Shown: positions 43,383-45,610 of the stretch, in pieces | Layout: each line of letters opens with the position of its first letter | Position numbering within the stretch: position 1 is the first letter of the stretch | Source: Lutimonas halocynthiae | GTDB taxonomy: Bacteria; Bacteroidota; Bacteroidia; Flavobacteriales; Flavobacteriaceae | Assembly: GCF_030409835.1 (NCBI RefSeq) | Contig: NZ_JAUFQO010000016.1 | Location: 904,263-968,262, forward strand | Length of the DNA: 64,000 nt | Direction of reading: 5' to 3' | Notes under the pieces: model-generated | Database searches by the model: none | Told to the model about the DNA's origin: nothing | The model's input: only the letters and a program-made list of their open reading frames with translations | Made by a program: the position numbers and the translations under genes

Positions 43383-43574
43383 ATGTTACAAGGAACAGTA
43401 AAATTTTTCAACGAGTCTAAAGGTTTTGGATTCATCACGGAAGAGGGTTCAAACACAGAACATTTCGTTCACATTTCTGGTTTAATTGACAAAATTAGCG
43501 AAGGAGATACAGTTGAATTCGACTTAAAGGAAGGCAAAAAAGGATTAAACGCAGTAAATGTCAAGACCGTTTAG
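43383..43574 (+). CDS. Cold-shock-domain protein (CspA family)
   Basis: 63 aa. RNP1 (KGFGFI) and RNP2 (EHFVHIS) are present: GTVKFFNESKGFGFITEEGSNTEHFVHISGL. An RNA-binding OB fold used as a chaperone of mRNA structure. It is monocistronic with a terminator at 43601-43630. The T of the expected FVH motif is preceded by EH instead of D-(V/I)F, a small deviation common in Bacteroidota Csps. Confidence 0.96.
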   Translation: MLQGTVKFFNESKGFGFITEEGSNTEHFVHISGLIDKISEGDTVEFDLKEGKKGLNAVNVKTV

Positions 43575-43669: not shown

Positions 43670-43711
43670 TGACAAATGTCAACTTATAAGAATTCTTGAT
43701 CTCTACCTTTG
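43670..43711 (+). promoter_or_regulatory. Crp/Fnr-like inverted repeat with downstream -7 box upstream of the 605-aa gene
   Basis: TGAC-AAAT-GTCA at 43670-43681 is a perfect inverted repeat (TGAC-N4-GTCA), the layout of Fnr/HcpR-type sites. TACCTTTG at 43704-43711 is a TAnnTTTG box, and no TTG lies upstream at normal spacing. The palindrome centre is about 39-41 bp before the likely transcription start, the position of a class II activator site. Confidence 0.5.
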
Positions 43712-43792
43712 TAGATTACTGCTAGCCTGATCAATTGAAAAATATGACCAGGATTCATCAGTGATTTGAATTAGTACTAAAAAAATCAAAAC

Positions 43793-45610
43793 ATGTCTAC
43801 AAAACACACCTTCCATATTCCCGTTATGGGAACTGGATTCACTCTTGATACGCCTTTAAAGGTCGCACCCTATGGTATGGATTCGGTTGTATCCATAGTG
43901 GATGACGTTCTCATTGAAAACCTCAGAAAAGCCTATTGTGAAAAATTTGAAATCCCTTATCAGGCGATAACAGATAAGATCGAAGACTTTAGAGCAAAAA
44001 GGATTACATCTTATTTAAATTTACTTCAAGAACTAGCTGAGGAAAAATTTAAACAAATTAAAGATTCAACACTTGAGACAAGTAAGGAGATCAAAGCATA
44101 CTTCAATATGCTTCCTGAGAGTTCAAGTTTGAAGCAACAATTTCTTGAACTGACTTCAAATAACACAACCTGGAAAGAAATTAAAAACTGGGCAAACCAG
44201 CACTTAAGTATGGGTAGTATTGATGTAAACATCATGACAAAACTCGACAAGGTGAATTATAAGGAGGGTGAAAAATTACCAAATGAATACAATGATGCTC
44301 ATGCGGCATTAAGAGGCTTCGCCGAAAGCAATCTGGAATCTTCTCTTGTGTTATCTGCCGGAATGAACCCTAGACTCTATAGCTATATGGAGCAGTTTGA
44401 CGACTTCTATCCGGATGTAAATGGCTATATCAAGAAAAAGATTGTTATCAAGGTAAGTGATTATCGCTCGGCCTTGATACAGGGTAAATTTTTAGCTAAA
44501 AAAGGGCTTTGGGTATCTGAATACAGGATTGAATCCGGGCTTAATTGCGGAGGCCATGCTTTTGCAACTGAAGGGTATCTGATGGGACCTATTTTAGAAG
44601 AGTTTAAAAGCAATAGGGAAGAGTTGATCAAAACGATTCATGAAATACTTCTTCCTGCCTTAAAGCATAGAGAAAAAGTAGCACCAACCAAAACATTAGA
44701 TTTAAAAATAACAGCTCAAGGAGGTGTAGGAACTGAAGAAGAACATAATTTCTTACTTGAACACTACGAAATTGACTCTGTAGGTTGGGGAAGTCCATTT
44801 CTATTGGTTCCTGAGGCCACTACTGTAGATGATGCCACATTAGATAAATTGGCAGCAGCTACTGAAAAGGATTTATACCTTAGTAATATATCACCCCTGG
44901 GAGTTCCTTTTAATAACCTAAGAGGTAATTCAAAGGATCTTGAGAAAGGTGTTAAAATAGAATCAGGAAGACCCGGAAGTCCATGTCCAAAAGAGTTTTT
45001 AGCATTAAACAGTGAGTTTACGGATAAGTCAATTTGTACTGCTTCAAGACAATACCAGCGAAATAAGATCAAAGAACTTGACAAGGAGGCTATTTCAAAA
45101 GAATCTTATAAGAATAAGTTTCAAAAAATCGTTGAAAAATCCTGCCTCTGTATGGGCCTTGGTGCTGCAACTGAACAAATTCACGAGATAAATACAAAAA
45201 CACCCGCAAAAGGCGTCTCTATCTGTCCTGGACCCAATATGGCCTATTTCTCTAAAATTATGAGTCTGAGAGAAATCACAGACCATATTTATGGAAGGAT
45301 CAATGTGATTCCTTCAAATAAAAGACCTAATATGTTCATCAAAGAATTAAAGCTTTATTCAGATCATCTTAAGGCTAAAATTGATGACATTCAAGGAGAT
45401 CTAAATAAAAGACAAGAGAAGTCTTTACTATCCTTTACCCAAAACCTAAAGGATGGAATTAGTTATTACAAAAACCTTTTTGCTCAGAGCAATGACAAGT
45501 TTGAAGCCTCAAAGCTTCAAATACTAGCTGAATTGCAATTATATATGGGTAATCTTGAGGATATGCAGAAACAGATATCAAAATTATCTCTTGCGACACA
45601 GAGCGTTTAA
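43793..45610 (+). CDS. Large conserved protein of unknown function, possible Cys-containing TIM-barrel oxidoreductase
   Basis: 605 aa, no signal peptide or TM helix. It opens KHTFHIPVMGTGFTLDTPLKVAPYGMDSVVSIVDD. Later it contains IESGLNCGGHAFATEGYLMGPI (Cys252) and LKITAQGGVGTEEEHNFLLEHYEIDSVGWGSPFLLVP. It also has LYLSNISPLGVPFNNLRGNS, SGRPGSPCPKEFLALN (Cys398), KSICTASRQY (Cys415), KSCLCMGLGAAT (Cys451, Cys453) and VSICPGPNMAYF (Cys478). The GTGF/DTPLKVA opening and QGGVGT loop resemble FMN-binding barrel enzymes (glutamate synthase or nitronate monooxygenase-like) and the Cys set could hold a Fe-S cluster. This is inference. The C-terminus (490-605) is helical. It has its own operator/promoter and converges on the NudK-like gene with 14 bp between stops. 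Confidence 0.75.
   Translation: MSTKHTFHIPVMGTGFTLDTPLKVAPYGMDSVVSIVDDVLIENLRKAYCEKFEIPYQAITDKIEDFRAKRITSYLNLLQELAEEKFKQIKDSTLETSKEIKAYFNMLPESSSLKQQFLELTSNNTTWKEIKNWANQHLSMGSIDVNIMTKLDKVNYKEGEKLPNEYNDAHAALRGFAESNLESSLVLSAGMNPRLYSYMEQFDDFYPDVNGYIKKKIVIKVSDYRSALIQGKFLAKKGLWVSEYRIESGLNCGGHAFATEGYLMGPILEEFKSNREELIKTIHEILLPALKHREKVAPTKTLDLKITAQGGVGTEEEHNFLLEHYEIDSVGWGSPFLLVPEATTVDDATLDKLAAATEKDLYLSNISPLGVPFNNLRGNSKDLEKGVKIESGRPGSPCPKEFLALNSEFTDKSICTASRQYQRNKIKELDKEAISKESYKNKFQKIVEKSCLCMGLGAATEQIHEINTKTPAKGVSICPGPNMAYFSKIMSLREITDHIYGRINVIPSNKRPNMFIKELKLYSDHLKAKIDDIQGDLNKRQEKSLLSFTQNLKDGISYYKNLFAQSNDKFEASKLQILAELQLYMGNLEDMQKQISKLSLATQSV

Follow-up and report, generated by a model that had tools for sequence, protein, structure and literature searches.

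The window, that is the whole stretch of 64,000 nucleotides of Lutimonas halocynthiae DNA that we analysed, carries a gene for a 605-residue protein preceded by an Fnr-type operator and a flavobacterial promoter box (Table 1). The open reading frame was found just as the original prediction had described it, and the elements named there (GTGF, DTPLKVA, QGGVGT and the cysteines at 252, 398, 415, 451, 453 and 478) are all present in the translation. A short cold-shock-like ORF (43383-43574; 63 residues, recognized by eye) lies directly upstream of the operator, and one occupies the same place in two other loci, L031 and L066.

Table 1. Features of the gene and its promoter, in window coordinates
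Feature	Position	Strand	Basis or remark
Fnr-type operator TGACAAATGTCA	43670..43681	+	centre at about -40.5; sequence, orthologue upstreams, genome-wide pattern
-7 box TACCTTTG (TAnnTTTG)	43704..43711	+	inferred start about 43716; box position from the part of PMC9723704 available to us
CDS of the 605-residue protein	43793..45610	+	ATG start; ORF list, homologues, structure models
NCGGH, residues 251-255	44543..44557	+	predicted catalytic His of NMO/FabK/FabX type; Cys252 invariant
QGGVGT, residues 309-314	44717..44734	+	equivalent of the flavin-phosphate loop AGGI; alignments to relatives
Cys398, Cys415, Cys451-x-Cys453, Cys478: predicted Fe-S ligand set	44984..45226	+	invariant in 83/83 rows; first four align with the 420-residue family
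C-terminal helical region, residues 500-605	45290..45607	+	secondary structure of the model; beyond the aligned core of the 420- and 483-residue relatives

A protein family spread through the Bacteroidota

Searches of Pfam-A and NCBIfam with the 605-residue protein gave no credible match (chance or coiled-coil hits only), neither it nor the other members of a 32-row alignment matched the Pfam NMO family (PF03060), and a PDB sequence and profile search returned no profile-level match to any NMO. The gene is present in 71 of 199 genomes of Flavobacteriaceae, the family to which the window belongs, and in 142 of 395 sampled Bacteroidota genomes (75 of 171 genera), nearly always as a single copy. 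The 44 loci obtained from a scan of genome contigs included records of Marinimicrobia and Calditrichaeota and one of an Actinomycetes MAG, at 48-53% identity, and the marine flavobacteria Tamlana and Zobellia (L034, L053) are among the carriers. The family is widespread in the phylum, yet neither Pfam nor NCBIfam, in the copies that we searched, contains a model of it. One homologue at 74% identity is from a Flavobacteriaceae MAG (L031); another, in a MAG chromosome (L066:6001-7245), is 79% identical over residues 1-375 and ends early at 414 residues, which may be a true truncation or the result of faulty assembly.

The alignment of 32 homologues has a mean column identity of 64%. In a larger alignment of 83 homologue rows, H255 and the cysteines C252, C398, C415, C451, C453 and C478 are invariant in all 83, as are Q309, G310, G311 and G313 of the glycine-rich loop; C49 is not invariant.

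Predicted fold and nearest relatives

The AlphaFold model of the protein (pLDDT 87.1, pTM 0.89) has the order of elements of a beta/alpha-barrel. A Foldseek search of the PDB with the full model placed FabX first (E-value 1.4e-10), among 19 matches at E-values of 0.001 or less to FabX, PfaD, trans-AT enoyl reductases, nitroalkane oxidase and fatty-acid synthases, for the last of which the Foldseek output does not report the matching domain. A model of the 490-residue core (pLDDT 85.0, falling below 50 at residues 251-261 around the GGH motif) again had FabX as its first match (4.4e-9), and its 21 matches at the same threshold comprised FabX, PfaD-type proteins, trans-AT enoyl reductases (DfnA, MlnA), FabK and nitronate/nitroalkane enzymes. 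The protein superposes loosely on FabX: the rmsd is 7-8 A, the TM-score 0.62-0.68 by target length and 0.41-0.49 by query length, and the residues aligned by Foldseek are about 15% identical. These models and searches place the protein among the (beta/alpha)8 FMN-type barrels, and we consider this predicted fold class, with its flavin, very probably correct. The FMN-barrel-like fold proposed in the original prediction is therefore borne out at the level of models; of the two enzymes it offered for comparison, nitronate monooxygenase was recovered, while a glutamate synthase barrel, absent from the best 50 structure matches of either search, was rejected. PfaD, the enoyl reductases of trans-AT PKS, FabK and nitronate monooxygenase would share the same FMN barrel fold, though each is a weaker fold match than FabX.

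Profile comparisons located the protein more closely. With a first, narrower alignment the hhalign matches were weak (E-values of 0.025 to a family of 420-residue NMO-like proteins, 0.026 to a 483-residue protein and 0.19 to FabK). With the 83-row alignment, the match to six CxC-type NMO proteins scored 61.6 (probability 92.5, E-value 4.8e-7) against at most 24.8 for 50 column-shuffled controls; five FabX-type proteins scored 34.7 against shuffled controls of up to 25.0, and FabK-like proteins, at 19.6 against controls of up to 22.9, were at the level of noise. As judged by the larger alignment and its shuffled controls, the relation of the 605-residue protein to the CxC-type NMO proteins is clear at the level of sequence profiles.

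The narrow alignment pairs GGH204, AGGIFTGT and STTGYPMRML of the 420-residue family with H255, QGGVGT and SPLGVPFNNL, giving a collinear SPxGxP, and pairs C319, C332, C358 and C360 with C398, C415, C451 and C453; in the 83-row hhalign alignment the first two of these cysteines are left unpaired. The HMM alignment to the 420- and 483-residue relatives stops near residue 460. The motif order of the NMO/FabK/FabX proteins is present, with H255 and GG310-311 in 83/83 rows and aligned to the relatives, in which the motif ahead of the catalytic His reads EAGGH (FabK-like set A3) or PLAGGH (the 420-residue family, set A2). The C..C..CxC order, an EKxCLCxG-like motif and the profile similarity all agree with the CxC-type NMO proteins, which comprise the 420-residue family and L263; the pairing of the fifth cysteine is uncertain.

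The best fold match, Helicobacter pylori FabX, is a dehydrogenase/isomerase of the NMO superfamily with a [4Fe-4S] cluster, and it shares with the 605-residue protein the TIM barrel, the GGH catalytic His, the GG flavin loop and a cysteine-rich C-terminal subdomain. FabX is shorter, however (363 residues), the protein described here having an extra helical insert and C-terminal region. In the part of PMC8626469 available to us, FabX has cysteines C300, C304, C308 and C320, catalytic H182 and S179. The FabX relatives in our comparison, L257-L261, keep the x3, x3, x7 spacing, whereas C398, C415, C451, C453 and C478 are separated by steps of 17, 36, 2 and 25 residues, so that the four-cysteine pattern C-x3-C-x3-C-x7..11-C was not found. 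Likewise the residue before GGH is Cys252 here, Ser179 in FabX and Ala in FabK-like proteins. Because the cysteine spacing differs, we regard the protein as having a FabX-like architecture without being a FabX. The metal cluster foreseen in the original prediction keeps its candidate ligands, since all six named cysteines are invariant, and we think a predicted Fe-S cluster likely.

The 420-residue family (families f16 and f18 of other Bacteroidota) has four cysteines in the same order and with the same CxC pattern, and it shares an EK[ST]CLCxG-like motif and the GGH and GG loops. Unlike the 605-residue family, its members are without the long C-terminal region, are detectable by Pfam (NMO, PF03060) and occur in other genomes (83 as against 142 of the 395, with no overlap). 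Their cysteines (L177-L186, L262) follow C-x12-C-x25-CxC, unlike FabX, and in NCBIfam they have only matches below the cut-off, the best being to the FabK model. The 483-residue NMO-like protein (L263:496-1944, minus strand) carries the CxC set of cysteines together with an insert close to its start, and looks intermediate between the 420-residue family and the window protein.

Operator and promoter

The original prediction had placed a perfect TGAC-N4-GTCA palindrome and a TAnnTTTG box ahead of the gene and had noted that TTG is absent at -33; palindrome and box were found as TGACAAATGTCA and TACCTTTG, the latter 34 bp further on, and no -33 TTG was seen by eye. At class II Fnr- or Crp-dependent promoters the palindrome is centred at about -41.5. 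In the part of PMC9723704 available to us, the flavobacterial TAnnTTTG box of F. psychrophilum occupies -12 to -5; the start is therefore placed at 43716, giving a leader of 77 nt and a palindrome centre at -40.5, in line with the 39-41 bp that had been predicted. With the start so inferred from the box, the position of the palindrome and the lack of a -33 element are those of a class II promoter.

We then took the 250 bp ahead of the orthologues at 104 loci, which gave 94 distinct upstreams, and searched these for a palindrome with no more than 2 of 8 mismatches located exactly 34 or 35 bp before TAnnTTTG. Such a pair occurred in 28 of the 94, at 34 bp in five and at 35 bp in 23, the latter spacing putting the centre at -41.5. 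Sixty first-order Markov simulations of the upstreams gave a mean of 0.22 pairs and a maximum of 2, and the other spacings from 13 to 80 bp averaged 0.14 pairs each; when a perfect palindrome was demanded the count fell to 9. The expected conservation in other species thus holds for these 28 upstreams and fails by the same definition for 66, which include some from the window's own family (L003-L011) and some from more distant lineages.

The operator had also been called Fnr/HcpR-like, and of this the Fnr-type class II part was supported and the HcpR consensus quoted with it was not. The form TTGAC-N4-GTCAA that had been ascribed to Bacteroidota HcpR is given in the part of PMC1274295 available to us for cyanobacterial HcpR, and the consensus given there for the HcpR2 branch, which includes Bacteroides, is GTAACnnnnGTTAC, which the site here (ATGACAAATGTCAA) does not match. 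An HcpR-type site was rejected on this difference between the quoted and the published consensus. A paper on HcpR structure (PMC12750200) gives no consensus in the portion available to us.

A probable low-oxygen regulon

For a genome-wide search we defined the module as TGAY-N4-RTCA with a TAnnTTTG box 21-24 bp further on, with the reversed pattern as control. In the window's own genome the module was found at 34 places, 25 of them spaced at 35 bp, and the control pattern at 2; ten other, hand-picked carrier genomes gave 185 matches against 7. A chance palindrome was ruled out by these counts and the orthologue upstreams. At 27 of 30 inspected loci (from the 34) an ORF of at least 60 residues starts within ~500 bp, and the genes preceded by a site include nos, nuo, hemA, PEPCK and PPDK. 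Pfam, applied to 20 ORFs from 19 of the inspected loci, identified glutamyl-tRNA reductase, PPDK, PEPCK, NuoA, NuoB, RseC, a sulfide-dehydrogenase-like flavoprotein, carbonic anhydrase and MlaE, with less telling matches to TPR, CotH, sulfotransferase, porin, FadL, fasciclin, zinc dehydrogenase and glyoxalase families; three of the 20 had no Pfam family.

In the same genome two overlapping, divergent Fnr-type modules at C16:583349-583423 (L110) separate an Rrf2-type gene (by eye) from the genes running into nosZ (C16:580292-582094), and similar divergent pairs occur in G025 and G125. In at least seven of the ten other carrier genomes (G005, G025, G032, G119, G120, G125, G163) a site is found 1.2-1.4 kb upstream of nosZ on the same strand. 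On this pattern we read the module as an Fnr-type class II regulon that would include denitrification and anaerobic-type genes. It resembles the Fnr, Dnr and HcpR regulons in its N4-spacer palindrome at a class II position and in its nos, nuo and heme genes, and differs in joining TGAY-N4-RTCA to a TAnnTTTG box. In F. psychrophilum, according to the available part of PMC9723704, cbb3 oxidase and heme synthesis are induced when oxygen is limiting. Our literature search found no report on an HcpR/Fnr regulon in Bacteroidetes or on control of nosZ by Fnr/Crp in Flavobacteriaceae, and the module offers a signature with which the anaerobic regulons of these bacteria can be mapped.

The make-up of the regulon bears on what the enzyme might act on. 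Among its genes, nuoAB, PEPCK, PPDK, an RseC-type gene that looks Rnf-like by eye and one of glyoxalase fold belong to central metabolism, and NMO-fold barrels accept many substrates; both would suit a redox enzyme of anoxic metabolism with a non-acyl substrate, such as a reductase of enoates, ketones or small acids that receives its electrons from ferredoxin or Rnf. Against this, the top structural neighbours (FabX, PfaD, DfnA, MlnA, FabK and FAS) act on acyl-thioesters, and we consider a non-acyl enzyme possible though rather unlikely.

The own genome encodes five HTH_Crp_2 proteins above the cut-off. One of them, L075, retains the Glu..Arg pair for recognition and adjoins a cbb3-type ATPase gene (by eye); no Fnr-like cysteine cluster was seen in it when it was compared by eye with Fnr. 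L075, whose apparent homologues sit next to a cbb3-type ATPase gene, is our candidate for the regulator. Another Crp/Fnr-family gene (C8:987605-989978; L079, L098) is located ~2 kb from a regulon site that precedes the gene for the sulfide-dehydrogenase-like flavoprotein, and L078 is a second similar regulator.

Genome context

We compared carriers and non-carriers among the 199 Flavobacteriaceae genomes, counting nosZ at E-values of 1e-50 or less and nrdD over its cut-off, with one-sided Fisher tests whose p values ignore phylogeny and genome size. On this footing nosZ was present in 44/71 carriers and 46/128 non-carriers (p 3.5e-4), nrdD in 13/71 and 8/128 (p 0.009), and either gene in 51/71 and 48/128 (p 2.8e-6). 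The gene lies within 12 kb of nosZ in six of the 44 genomes having both (0.3 expected), a limit that was chosen after the places had been seen. In L187 and L188 it comes directly after nrdG-nrdD, in L189 nor genes precede it, and in L190 a cbb3 cluster lies on one side of it and a nos cluster on the other. By these counts the 605-residue gene is linked to anaerobic genes; against this, nosZ is missing from 27 of the 71 carriers and nrdD from 58. Neighbouring genes, here and below, were named by eye apart from nrdD, nosZ and those identified by Pfam or NCBIfam, and counts over the set of 84 loci are biased, since nine of its 39 usable added regions were chosen for genomes carrying both the gene and nrdD.

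The link to nosZ, together with loci that adjoin norB/norC, RIC-like, truncated haemoglobin, NnrS-like and Rrf2 genes (by eye), would fit a nitronate monooxygenase-like enzyme detoxifying nitrogen oxides or nitro compounds in a denitrification response. Nitronate monooxygenases use O2, though, and are therefore a poor fit to low-oxygen control, and 27 of the 71 carriers are without nosZ; we judge a detoxifying enzyme improbable. Our literature search found no report of a nitronate monooxygenase under Fnr or anaerobic control in Flavobacterium.

Partnership with NadA and NadB in oxygen-independent NAD synthesis was considered because of synteny: nadA is near the gene in 18 of 84 loci and nadB in 17 (by eye), with nadA the first or second downstream gene in 16 of the 18. 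In the ten loci where nadA comes next, however, a gap of 52-299 bp intervenes, the order or strand differs in other loci (e.g., L192), and 66 of the 84 loci have no such link. We judged this synteny to be mostly shared ancestry and set the partnership aside as very improbable.

Proposed function

The reading we prefer is that of an FMN and Fe-S oxidoreductase induced at low oxygen and most likely acting on acyl-thioesters, which, taken as a whole and by analogy, we rate a little below an even chance. Such an enzyme may supply a redox step on which these bacteria depend when oxygen is absent. We infer its cofactors, substrate, direction, electron partner, regulator and signal as follows. The protein would be a divergent flavoenzyme of the NMO/FabK/FabX superfamily, with an FMN-binding (beta/alpha)8 barrel, a catalytic H255 and a cysteine-rich subdomain, the probable site of a [4Fe-4S] cluster. 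An Fnr/Crp-family activator would bind TGAC-N4-GTCA at the class II position and recruit RNA polymerase to the TAnnTTTG promoter, a type common to nos, nuo, hemA, PEPCK and other genes. Since such an activator is proposed to act at its promoter, the protein would be made at low oxygen (or with NO), and on the promoter evidence induction of this kind is highly likely.

The nearest folds act on acyl-thioesters, hence our proposal of an acyl-thioester oxidoreductase; by this analogy such a substrate has about an even chance of being correct. The chemistry would be a two-electron oxidation, reduction or isomerization, with proton transfer by H255, hydride transfer to FMN, and electrons passing through the cluster to or from some acceptor that is not O2. 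A FabX/UfaA-like role in the synthesis of unsaturated fatty acids without O2 is the best specific guess. In the available parts of the two papers, FabX makes unsaturated fatty acids (PMC8626469), and a Neisseria homologue is essential for anaerobic unsaturated fatty acid synthesis, its electron acceptor being unknown (PMC11300592). By analogy with these enzymes, a role in unsaturated fatty-acid synthesis would be plausible, though less likely than not. More speculative by a small step is the wider proposal that the 605-residue family may perform oxygen-independent desaturation or isomerization in Bacteroidota lipid synthesis, replacing FabX where it is absent, with another Fe-S pattern, an active-site Cys beside the catalytic His and a low-oxygen/NO regulon shared with denitrification.

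FabX-like (5) or 420-residue (83) NMO proteins, at 100 bits or more, occur in 88 of the 395 genomes and in none of the 142 carriers of the 605-residue gene. Because 81 of the 88 belong to one family, f18, this mutual exclusion may reflect ancestry only, and we take the absence of these proteins from carriers as suggestive only. Our literature search found no report on anaerobic unsaturated fatty acid synthesis by an enoyl flavoprotein in Bacteroidetes. The NMO/FabX link and the low-oxygen regulon give a gene without a name a testable identity as a redox enzyme, and membrane lipid synthesis in these bacteria once oxygen disappears would become directly testable. In a single locus, the only one of 84 with recognized fatty-acid genes nearby (L038:2427-7812), an apparent fabH-accB-accC group precedes the gene with one Lrp-type gene between them (accC and Lrp identified by Pfam, the rest by eye).
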